From NCBI GenBank assembly GCA_000471925.1, contig CP006667.1, forward strand, positions 992,001-1,056,000: 64,000 bases of DNA, read 5' to 3'. Under the pieces are notes generated by a model. That model was given only the letters and a program-made list of their open reading frames with translations. It ran no database searches and had not been told where the DNA came from. Within the stretch, counting starts at the first letter, position 1. Each line of letters begins with the position of its first letter. Made by a program: the position numbers and the translations under genes. Below are positions 19,475 to 22,150 of the stretch, one piece after another. This DNA is from Ralstonia pickettii DTP0602. Its GTDB lineage: Bacteria; Pseudomonadota; Gammaproteobacteria; Burkholderiales; Burkholderiaceae.

Positions 19475-19960
19475 TCAGCCCGCCAGCGCCCGCACCCAGC
19501 GCACCACGTGCGGCCCGGCGATGGCCACCCAGGTGCCGCCGCACAGCACCAGCGCCAGCATCACCGCGGCGCTGCCGAAATCCTTGGCGCGCTTGGACAG
19601 GCTGTGCCGCTCCAGCGAAATGCGGTCGATCGCCGCCTCGACGCTGGAGTTGAGCAGCTCCACGATCAGCACCACCAGCAGCGTGCCCAGCAGCAGGATG
19701 CGCTCGACCACGTCCACCGGCAGCAGGAAGGCCCACGGCGCCAGGATCACCACCAGTGTCAGCTCCTGGCGGAACGCGCTCTCCTCGAGCACCGCAAAGC
19801 GCAGCCCCGAAAGCGAATTGATGGCCGCATGCCAGGCGCGCGTCAGGCCGCGGTTGCCCTTATGGGGGTTCTGCTCGATCGAATAGTCAGCGCTCTGGAC
19901 TGCCTGCGGCGGCCTCTGCAGAGGCGGGTCGGATGGCAGTTCCGGATGGGGTTTCGGCAT
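19475..19960 (-). CDS. dgkA: diacylglycerol kinase, integral membrane
   Basis: A 161-residue DgkA-type kinase that phosphorylates diacylglycerol to phosphatidic acid. From about residue 40 it matches the family: NRGLTRAWHAAINSLSGLRFAVLEESAFRQE with the catalytic Glu, three membrane helices, and VELLNSSVEAAIDRIS with the conserved metal-binding Glu. The usual length is about 120, so the N-terminal 40 residues are extra. The ATG used here overlaps the glycosyltransferase end by 74 bp, and a later non-ATG start is possible. It is last in the phosphoesterase-glycosyltransferase-kinase operon, where it would recycle released diacylglycerol. Confidence 0.9.
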   Translation of the reverse strand: MPKPHPELPSDPPLQRPPQAVQSADYSIEQNPHKGNRGLTRAWHAAINSLSGLRFAVLEESAFRQELTLVVILAPWAFLLPVDVVERILLLGTLLVVLIVELLNSSVEAAIDRISLERHSLSKRAKDFGSAAVMLALVLCGGTWVAIAGPHVVRWVRALAG

Positions 19961-21002
19961 GGGTGTGGGATGCGGGTTGGGGCGCCGCGCCGCCCGCCTT
20001 GCCAGCGGCGACCGGGCGCAGATGGGCCAGGAACTGCTCGGAGGCGGCGCGCCACGAGAACCGCTCGGCATGGGCTCGGGCCGTGGCGCGGTCGATGCGC
20101 AGCGCTTCCAGGCAGGCTTCGCGCAGGTCTTCGTGCATCACGCCCGCGGGGCTGTCGCCCAGCACATCGATCGGACCGGTGACCGGGTACGCCGCCACGG
20201 GCAGCCCGCTGGCCAGCGCTTCCAGCAGCACCAGCCCGAAGGTGTCGGTGCGGCTCGGGAACACGAACACGTCAGCCGAAGCATACACCCGGGCCAGTTC
20301 CGGTTGGCTCAACACGCCGAGGTAGTTGGCGCCCGGATAGCGCGCCCGCAGCGCCGCCAGCGCGGGGCCGTCGCCGACCACCCATTTCGAGCCGGGCAGG
20401 TCCAGGGACAGGAAGGCCTCGACGTTCTTCTCGACCGCCACCCGGCCCACGTACAGGAAGATCGGGTGGGCGGTGTTGAGCACGTTGGGGCGCTGCAGCG
20501 TGAACACGTCCAGGTCGACGCCGCGCGTCCACAGCACGCCGTGGGTGATGCCGTGGCTTTGCAGGTCGTCCAGCACCACCGGCGTGGGCGCCATCACGGC
20601 GCGCGCCGGGCCGTGGAACCAGCGCAGGAAGCGGTAGGTCCAGGTCAGCGGGATGCCGAAGCGGGCCTGCACGTATTCCGGAAAGCGCGTGTGGTAGGCC
20701 GTGGTGAACGGCAGCTTGCGGCGGATCGCATGGCGCCGCGCGGCCAGGCCGAGCGGGCCTTCAGTGGCGATGTGCAGGGCGTCGGGGCCGAAGGCTTCGA
20801 TACGACGCTGCACGCGTGCCGACGGCAGCAGCGACAGGCGGATCTCGGGATACGTCGGACACGGCACGGTGCGGAATTCCAGCGGCGTGATCATGTCGAC
20901 CGTGTGGCCCATGGCCTCCAGTTCGCGGCGCGTGGACTTGAGCGTGCGCACTACGCCGTTGACCTGCGGTTCCCAGGCATCGGTGACGATCATTATCTTC
21001 AT
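19887..21002 (-). CDS. Agt-like diacylglycerol glycosyltransferase (GT4)
   Basis: A 371-residue GT-B glycosyltransferase. Recognisable segments are IVTDAWEPQVNGVVRTL, DALHIATEGPLGLAAR, TTAYHTRFPEYV, the WTRGVDLDVF linker, VGRVAVEKNVEAFLSLDLPGSKWVVGDGP, and the donor-binding PSRTDTFGLVLLEALASG with its E-x7-E-like end. These closely follow the enzymes I recall as Agt, which make glycolipids from diacylglycerol in phosphate-starved bacteria. The ATG has GAGGAGG five bases upstream. The gene lies between a PlcP-like phosphoesterase and dgkA, which supports diacylglycerol as acceptor. The sugar donor is not predictable. Confidence 0.85.
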   Translation of the reverse strand: MKIMIVTDAWEPQVNGVVRTLKSTRRELEAMGHTVDMITPLEFRTVPCPTYPEIRLSLLPSARVQRRIEAFGPDALHIATEGPLGLAARRHAIRRKLPFTTAYHTRFPEYVQARFGIPLTWTYRFLRWFHGPARAVMAPTPVVLDDLQSHGITHGVLWTRGVDLDVFTLQRPNVLNTAHPIFLYVGRVAVEKNVEAFLSLDLPGSKWVVGDGPALAALRARYPGANYLGVLSQPELARVYASADVFVFPSRTDTFGLVLLEALASGLPVAAYPVTGPIDVLGDSPAGVMHEDLREACLEALRIDRATARAHAERFSWRAASEQFLAHLRPVAAGKAGGAAPQPASHTHAETPSGTAIRPASAEAAAGSPER

Positions 21003-21073
21003 GCAGCCTCCTCGGGGGGCGGTGGAAGGGCAATGCGGATGGGCGTGGCCGGCGCGCAGCGCGCCGGCCGGGA

Positions 21074-21940
21074 TCAGCTGGCCACGGCGGCGCGGCGACC
21101 GCGGCGCGTGGCGGGGGCGGGCGGGTCCAGCAGCGTGGTCCAGTAGACGATCTTCAGCTCGCCTTCCATGGTCTCGACCAGCGCCGACAGGCTTTCTACC
21201 CAGTCGCCGTCGTTGCAGTAGAGCTGGCCGTTGAGCTCGCGGATCTCGGCCTTGTGGATATGGCCGCAGACCACGCCGTCGCAGCCGCGCCGGCGCGCCT
21301 CGTCGACCATCGCGGTCTCGAACGCACTGATGTAGTTGACCGCGTTCTTGACCTGGTGCTTCAGGTACTGCGACAGCGACCAGTACGGAAAGCCAAGCCG
21401 CGCACGCAGGCGGTTGAAATGGCGGTTCATCGCCAGGATCATCGTGTACAGCGAATCGCCCAGGTAGGCCAGCCAGCGCGCGTGCTGGACCACGCCGTCG
21501 AACAGGTCGCCATGCACCACCCACAGCCGGCGGCCGGTGGCGGTGACGTGGATGGCTTCTTCGCGCACGGTGATGTCGCCGAAGGCCATGCCGTCGAACT
21601 GGCGCGCGCCCTCGTCATGGTTGCCGGGCACGTAGACCACCTCGGTGCCCTTGCGCGCCTTGCGCAGCAGCTTCTGCACCACGTCGTTGTGGCTCTGCGG
21701 CCAGTACCAGCCGCGGCGCAGCTGCCAGCCGTCGATGATGTCGCCGACCAGGTAGAGCTGCTCGGACTCGTTGTGCTTGAGGAAGTCCAGCAGGTAGTTG
21801 GCCTGGCAGCCGGGCGTGCCCAGGTGGATGTCGGACAGCCAGATGGCGCGGTAGCGGTGGATCGGGTGCGGCTCGGGCGGGTAGGCGTCCTGTTGCTCTC
21901 GCGGCGGGGCCAGTGTTGCGCCATCCATGCCCGGCGGCAT
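21074..21940 (-). CDS. PlcP-like metallophosphoesterase (phospholipase C type)
   Basis: A 288-residue calcineurin-fold phosphoesterase of the COG2908 group. Metal-binding motifs are complete: WLSDIHLG, YLVGDIIDGW, VPGNHDE, VVHGDLFD and VCGHIHKAE. The run WYWPQSHNDVVQKLLRKARKG is what I recall as characteristic of PlcP, which cleaves phospholipids to diacylglycerol, rather than of LpxH. It is followed by an Agt-like transferase and DgkA, making LpxH function less likely. Start choice: ATG at 21940 or 21928; an upstream frame to 22147 would overlap the Pho-box-like repeats and has poorer third-position GC. Generic annotation would be UDP-2,3-diacylglucosamine diphosphatase family. Confidence 0.82.
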   Translation of the reverse strand: MPPGMDGATLAPPREQQDAYPPEPHPIHRYRAIWLSDIHLGTPGCQANYLLDFLKHNESEQLYLVGDIIDGWQLRRGWYWPQSHNDVVQKLLRKARKGTEVVYVPGNHDEGARQFDGMAFGDITVREEAIHVTATGRRLWVVHGDLFDGVVQHARWLAYLGDSLYTMILAMNRHFNRLRARLGFPYWSLSQYLKHQVKNAVNYISAFETAMVDEARRRGCDGVVCGHIHKAEIRELNGQLYCNDGDWVESLSALVETMEGELKIVYWTTLLDPPAPATRRGRRAAVAS

Positions 21941-22112
21941 GAAGGCGGTCAGTGCGGCGACGCTGTTGGGATCACTCCCCCAGCCGCTTTCTGGGCTGCG
22001 GCCCAGCCGTTGCGTCAGTTGCACGGCCCTCGACAGATATCCGCGGGCAGATCGGATTGCTTGCACCATGGCAGTCCCGGTTGCGGCGATGGCTGCATTC
22101 AGCCAGCGTGCG

Positions 22113-22150
22113 ATGACGGTGCCGTGACGGAAACATGACTGCCACATGAA
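22113..22150 (-). promoter_or_regulatory. Pho-box-like array upstream of plcP-agt-dgkA
   Basis: On the minus strand the blocks TTCAT, GTCAT, GTCAC and GTCAT recur exactly every 11 bp. Three of the four are near-perfect matches to the 3' half of the PhoB repeat (CTGTCAT), and 11-bp spacing is the hallmark of PhoB binding. The array lies about 170 bp upstream of the PlcP-like start. PhoB control is inferred from spacing and sequence. Confidence 0.68.

Follow-up and report, generated by a model that had tools for sequence, protein, structure and literature searches.

In Pseudomonas aeruginosa, the genes plcP and agt form a pair with a Pho box, and low-phosphate glycolipids have been demonstrated, as passages of PMC8528852 report. 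According to the same passages, purified PA3218 (Agt1) makes monoglucosyl-diacylglycerol (MGDG) from UDP-glucose, and this lipid disappears when plcP or agt1 is deleted. In this study, we analysed a 64-kb stretch of DNA (C1:992001-1056000, hereafter the window) from an 8.13-Mb genome in three contigs, whose host is treated as Cupriavidus, family Burkholderiaceae. Part of the third contig is similar to plasmids of Cupriavidus (13 of the 15 matching records). On its minus strand, an array of PhoB-type half-sites precedes plcP, agt and dgkA, the last of which encodes a prokaryotic diacylglycerol kinase (Table 1). We believe, with a probability of about 85%, that these genes form a PhoB-activated operon that would replace phospholipids under phosphate starvation. 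It is probably a widespread case, mislabelled in databases, of the known Pho-regulated PlcP-Agt kind, with control shared with olsB. What is established for the locus is its sequence, the layout of its promoter, its conservation, the phylogeny and the order of its genes, and the main interpretation of the initial annotation is supported at the sequence level. That annotation had placed the pathway in alpha-proteobacteria and marine bacteria; it is known there but not confined to them, as P. aeruginosa has it too (passages of PMC8528852). Because P. aeruginosa already has plcP-agt with a Pho box and proven glycolipids, the advance is smaller than the initial annotation implied.

PlcP of Sinorhizobium meliloti and Agt of Agrobacterium have reportedly been described by Zavaleta-Pastor 2010 and Semeniuk 2014. 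The window protein resembles the S. meliloti PlcP (50% identity over 263 residues, motif WPQSxNDVVQKLLRKARKG), whereas the plcP of S. meliloti has no adjoining agt or dgkA in the 8.9-kb stretch seen. The PlcP-Agt1 operon of P. aeruginosa (PA3219-PA3218) shares the layout of plcP, then agt, and a Pho box. The identities to P. aeruginosa, 55% over 236 residues for PlcP and 54% over 327 residues for Agt, refer to a plasmid-borne copy presumed to be the PA3219-PA3218 region. Unlike P. aeruginosa, in which the 8.7-kb stretch examined holds no dgkA, our genome has dgkA as the third gene. PAO1 has both Agt1 and Agt2 (passages of PMC8528852), whereas a second Agt of comparable score was not found in our genome, where the next match reached 29.9 bits.

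Marine plcP gene clusters have been sorted into six types, of which Type 2 is plcP with agt, and Pho boxes are predicted for them; the cluster section of PMC4796936 describes no type with dgkA. The main text of PMC4796936 makes no mention of diacylglycerol kinase, Betaproteobacteria, Burkholderia, Cupriavidus or Ralstonia. In P. putida BIRD-1, DagK, PlcP, OlsA and OlsB are reported as phosphate-depletion-induced and are called PHO-dependent in the discussion (passages of PMC5082522). These are the same functions as in our genome; the P. putida data are a proteome list, and its passages state neither a plcP-agt-dgkA operon nor a PF01219 type for DagK. A kinase in the phosphate response is therefore not a new idea, and its operon with plcP and agt is the freshest part of this study. 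A search of the open-access literature, which leaves out most subscription journals, did not find dgkA in an operon with plcP-agt or a recurrent adjacency of these genes. For the pathway in Cupriavidus or Burkholderia, the papers listed from the open-access literature included titles on other organisms, reviews (one of them on Agrobacterium) and one Burkholderia gladioli genome paper.

Table 1. Positions of the proposed operon, its promoter and the two further arrays. Unprefixed positions are those of the window.
Feature	Position	Strand	Basis or remark
dgkA, prokaryotic diacylglycerol kinase	19475..19960	-	Sole PF01219 match in genome; 74-nt overlap with the 3' end of agt if the start is 19960
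agt, GT4, predicted UDP-sugar:diacylglycerol glycosyltransferase	19887..21002	-	Domains; identity to P. aeruginosa neighbour
plcP, phosphoesterase of COG2908 type, predicted to act inside the cell as a phospholipase C that yields diacylglycerol	21074..22069	-	Domains, residues, tree
-10-like hexamer CTGAAT, TGG before it	22097..22102	-	First base 15 nt from first base of last half-site
PhoB-type half-site array TTCAT, GTCAT, GTCAC, GTCAT, 11-bp period	22113..22150	-	Direct reading, shuffles, genome scan, conservation
Four-unit array before OlsB-like gene	C1:3004536-3004573 (L108 1537-1574)		
OlsB-like ornithine N-acyltransferase gene	L108 1627-2466	+	PF13444, 127 bits
Third array, before EAL-CBS-GGDEF gene	C2:1372983-1373009 (L109 2984-3010)		Triple Pho-like, 35/36 in in-house score
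EAL-CBS-GGDEF gene	L109 3057-4898	+	

The promoter array before plcP and elsewhere in the genome

From the array to the hexamer, the minus-strand letters are 5'-TTCATGTGGCA GTCATGTTTCC GTCACGGCACC GTCATCGCACGCTGG CTGAAT. The half-sites start at 22150, 22139, 22128 and 22117 in exact 11-bp steps, and direct reading confirmed both the letters and the position given for them in the initial annotation. The promoter extends beyond the array described there, to the -10-like hexamer. A triple GTCAY array matched once in the window and in none of 100 dinucleotide-preserving shuffles. In the whole genome it gave 4 matches at 3 places, compared with 0 and 0 in the reversed control, and these places lie before plcP, before an OlsB-like gene and before an EAL-CBS-GGDEF gene. 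The looser two-unit pattern with 3 mismatches allowed was uninformative genome-wide (569 and 575 matches versus 364 and 379 in the control).

The distance of 15 nt from the last GTCA to the hexamer is the same in E. coli phoA (TATAGT), in the olsB promoter (TACATT) and in the two-unit box before the gene read as pstS in this genome (TAGAGT), while in the promoter of the EAL gene the half-site in this register is the second of three. The layout of a PhoB promoter, namely direct GTCA repeats at 11 bp with a fixed -10 register, is thus found before plcP, and the genome encodes PhoB (347.1 bits versus a cut-off of 296.2). Among 41 plcP promoters examined, the distance was 15 nt in 38 of 38 regular-expression matches, although other distances were permitted. 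The three promoters without a match were L074, L078 and L099; on visual inspection, the 15-nt distance is also present in L074 and L099, there following AGG. The aligned upstream regions, from which L078 was left out, share a conserved TGGCnnAAT just 3' of the array, with AGGC in L074 and L099. When the upstream regions were scored against 200 mononucleotide shuffles, 39 of the 41 reached p ≤ 0.025, the best-scoring place differing in site between some of them. In its position, spacing and conservation, and in the genes beside the other arrays, the array before plcP looks like that of a PhoB promoter.

The second array lies about 50 bp before the OlsB-like gene and about 6 kb from phoB, with ppx, ppk, phoR, phoU and pst genes, as read from the open reading frame list only, between or beyond the two. 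Among NCBIfam models, the OlsB-like protein scored best on two for OlsB, with 167 and 164 bits, under their cut-offs of 320 and 350. The genes for ornithine lipid and glycolipid seem to be co-regulated. The third array is near-perfect, and it suggests phosphate-controlled turnover of cyclic di-GMP (c-di-GMP) through the EAL-CBS-GGDEF gene. In other Cupriavidus genomes, we opened 29 array loci, the first listed match of each genome: 11 had the EAL gene or a related one behind arrays of differing letters (in three, the match covered the EAL part only), 5 showed plcP, 2 OlsB and 11 none of these. Some of the loci without query genes (L117, L119-L123, L129, L130, L134, L139 and L141) look like tandem repeats or chance.

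Predicted functions of the three enzymes and the proposed mechanism

The PlcP protein has a Metallophos domain over the Pfam cut-off and carries the motif WPQSHNDVVQKLLRKARKG, of which the S. meliloti counterpart is WPQSCNDVVQKLLRKARKG; the COG2908 phosphoesterase with PlcP-type residues named in the initial annotation was thus found. The metal ligands D80, H82, D110, N150, H186, H270 and H272 are kept in 98 of 98 PlcP sequences, the window protein included. The tree, which held 90 sequences, took 71 of these 98 (27 family sequences were left out) and 19 LpxH sequences, and the two groups were split with a support of 100/100. The PlcP side includes the S. meliloti protein of L229, which we take to be SMc00171 because genes for an acyl-homoserine-lactone synthase and for a LuxR protein lie near it. 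It also includes the P. aeruginosa protein of L230, presumably PA3219 from its adenylate/guanylate cyclase neighbour. The best protein match was 98% identical and named Cupriavidus necator. Among solved structures, none was close to PlcP (Vps29 came first with E 0.0011, and an entry named LpxH had E 0.19). The protein is predicted to cleave phospholipids to diacylglycerol (DAG).

The glycosyltransferase has both GT4 domains over the Pfam cut-offs (PF13439, 84.5 bits; PF13692, 63.7 bits), and it was a plcP neighbour of P. aeruginosa, taken as Agt1 by context, that gave the 54% identity stated above; the Agt-like GT4 enzyme of the initial annotation was thereby recovered. EX7E is the GT4 motif, and D253-X7-E261 stands in its place, with D in 65 of 70 sequences and E in 5 of 70. 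A solved-structure search gave partial GT4 matches. Because the Agt1 of P. aeruginosa makes monoglucosyl-DAG from UDP-glucose, glucose is our best guess for the sugar. The third member, DgkA, matched DAGK_prokar (PF01219) with 101.8 bits versus a cut-off of 22.3, in agreement with the DgkA annotated at first.

We infer co-transcription, PhoB binding, catalysis and the identity of the sugar, and the mechanism may be as follows. At low phosphate, PhoB would bind the 11-bp array and substitute for a -35 element before the -10 hexamer at 22102-22097. PlcP would then remove the head groups of phospholipids and leave DAG, while the freed phosphate-bearing head group would feed the cell. Agt would glycosylate this DAG, most likely with glucose, the sugar used by P. 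aeruginosa Agt1, and so give a glycolipid free of phosphorus. DgkA may turn surplus DAG to phosphatidic acid, which would prevent DAG build-up and return the pool to phospholipid when phosphate comes back; this recycling role, like the steps before it, is our inference. Because the OlsB-like gene has the same strong array, both phosphorus-free lipids may be switched on together. If this is true, phosphate limitation should remake the Cupriavidus membrane with glycolipids and ornithine lipids. Phosphate limitation is often used for polymer production in Cupriavidus.

Gene order, the place of DgkA and the alternative explanations

In the family survey of 200 genomes (plcP threshold E ≤ 1e-10), plcP was found in 171, our genome included. 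Besides our own, 40 loci were opened, selected by hand so as to span 13 of the 16 matching genera (all except g21, g22 and g23). In all 40, agt follows plcP, and in 39 the order plcP-agt-dgkA runs in one direction, which bears out the three-gene order for which a survey had been proposed. A dgkA match was present in 176 of the 200 genomes (two matches in at least 31 of them), and dgkA was single-copy in 22 of the 22 same-genus genomes of this survey.

In the class survey of 274 genomes (plcP threshold E ≤ 1e-15), plcP was found in 81, again including our own. We opened 54 of the other 80 loci; 26 genomes were left out by hand with no fixed rule, about ten being second genomes of families, several having fragmentary matches and the rest being arbitrary. 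Contig ends truncate several of the opened stretches (L183, L192, L199, L205, L217 and L224). Of these 54 loci from outside the family, 9 have dgkA next to plcP: it lies upstream with the same orientation in L175, L176, L217 and L218, is divergent in L180, L188 and L210, and comes after a glycosyltransferase in L211 and L222. These nine fall at about six places of the tree, and shared ancestry of some is possible. A coarse estimate, taking a stretch of 7 kb and a genome of 2-5 Mb, puts the chance of such adjacency at a fraction of a percent per genome. Two agt-like genes surround plcP and dgkA in L175, L176 and L211, possibly for a two-step glycolipid synthesis.

On balance, we lean slightly towards DgkA being a recurrent, dedicated third arm of PlcP remodelling, in a plcP-agt-dgkA module that would direct DAG either to glycolipid or to phosphatidic acid and that may be near-fixed in the Burkholderiaceae loci opened and assembled repeatedly elsewhere. 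In Cupriavidus, the module would belong to a small core with the strongest PhoB arrays, which also takes in olsB and the c-di-GMP enzyme. If so, this core ties the exchange of membrane lipids, the making of ornithine lipid and changes of lifestyle to phosphate. The operon-encoded kinase would also offer a direct way to ask how cells check DAG during phospholipid breakdown.

Several observations weigh against the reading of a PhoB-activated remodelling operon with its own kinase. The Agt protein stays under the NCBIfam equivalog cut-offs among the 21 families listed for comparison, none of which is named Agt (best NF053787, 78.4 versus 480; MGlcDAG synthase, 61.3 versus 400). The promoter of L078 lacks the 15-nt register, and the array score was not significant in L071 (p 0.109) and L072 (p 0.090). 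The promoter and locus counts within the family share descent, and they show conservation and not independent events. In 60 same-genus genomes, at least one triple array occurred in 49 (153 matches in total), whereas the reversed control still gave 44 matches in 21 of them, and the array also stands at other places; across the genus, the array is enriched yet accompanied by chance matches, while the reversed control is zero in our own genome. In at least two further genomes, G048 and G055, dgkA and plcP are on different contigs. In passages of PMC5082522, PlcP and OlsAB are named among the P. putida proteins absent from the phoBR mutant, and DagK is not.

Other points of this kind bear on the kinase itself and would fit another explanation: the Pho-regulated PlcP-Agt system works as proposed, while dgkA is a passenger that serves general DAG recycling (periplasmic glucan, lipid A modification) and is there by history. 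As the sole copy in our genome, and as a single copy in the 22 same-genus genomes, dgkA must do any housekeeping job. In L072, plcP-agt is present while the only dgkA is found elsewhere on that contig, at a distance of about 0.86 Mb. At 45 of the 54 outside loci, dgkA is absent from the stretch seen, which in some cases is cut short by a contig end. Because of these 45 loci, the kinase does not appear necessary for the pathway in general. On the other side, the nine outside loci with dgkA beside plcP have differing orders, their adjacency is far above the chance estimate, dgkA overlaps agt in our genome, and P. putida DagK is reported as phosphate-depletion-induced together with PlcP (passages of PMC5082522). 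We therefore consider a passenger kinase unlikely, though it keeps an appreciable share of the probability. Instead of PhoB, the array might serve another regulator of the OmpR type whose site is a direct repeat. Such repeats are a common feature of the OmpR/PhoB family, and the PhoB model finds 78 matches in the genome at E ≤ 0.001, only one of which is over the cut-off. Against this, E. coli phoA and our pstS promoter share the 11-bp GTCA repeats and the 15-nt register with the array, and the other strong sites belong to a c-di-GMP gene and, within the phoB region, to a gene for a phosphorus-free lipid. We consider a regulator other than PhoB very improbable.

The database naming raises a different question. 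Relatives of PlcP are mainly named UDP-2,3-diacylglucosamine diphosphatase/hydrolase or LpxH, and a few Ser/Thr phosphatase, calcineurin-like, metallophosphoesterase or hypothetical; the name PlcP does not occur among the names listed for them. The warning in the initial annotation that a generic LpxH-like label hides the pathway was therefore apt. An LpxH-type UDP-2,3-diacylglucosamine hydrolase of lipid A synthesis belongs to the same superfamily, and the window protein has a weak match to the LpxH model. This match reaches 29.5 bits against a TIGR01854 cut-off of 190.35, whereas another gene of the genome reaches 243.6 bits; the two proteins share 25% identity over 146 residues, and a separate LpxH over the cut-off is present in 18 of 18 plcP genomes tested. 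Arg80 and Arg157 of LpxH (E. coli numbering) are His151 and Lys237 in the window protein. Arg stands at both positions in 19 of 19 LpxH sequences, whereas among the 98 PlcP sequences the first position is His in all and the second is Lys in 97. The model score, these residues and the 100/100 split of the tree rule out the LpxH reading at the level of sequence, leaving it hardly any probability, and the grouping with LpxH that would have spoken against the first proposal did not occur. Most of the family genomes surveyed (171/200) thus carry an enzyme that is mostly named as a lipid A enzyme and that very probably dismantles phospholipids in phosphate starvation.

Neighbouring genes and plasmid-borne copies

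Upstream of the operon, about 40 bp separate the array from the end of an alpha/beta-hydrolase (lipase-like) gene (23170-22190). Among the loci opened, a gene of this kind neighbours plcP in all 16 from the same genus and also in three further genera. Directly downstream of dgkA lies a TetR repressor gene (19382-18681, PF13972), which is present in 37 of the 40 family loci opened and is turned round or displaced in seven of these 37.

Plasmid-borne copies of plcP were also seen. The P. aeruginosa plasmid record L230 (NZ_CP137508.1 23379-32086) bears the plcP-agt segment with its neighbours, and three Pseudomonas plasmid records match in total. In Mitsuaria, the plasmid-borne plcP (L231 4025-8808) adjoins ppk1 and a Ppx/GppA gene, and a two-unit Pho-like box there scores 20/24.

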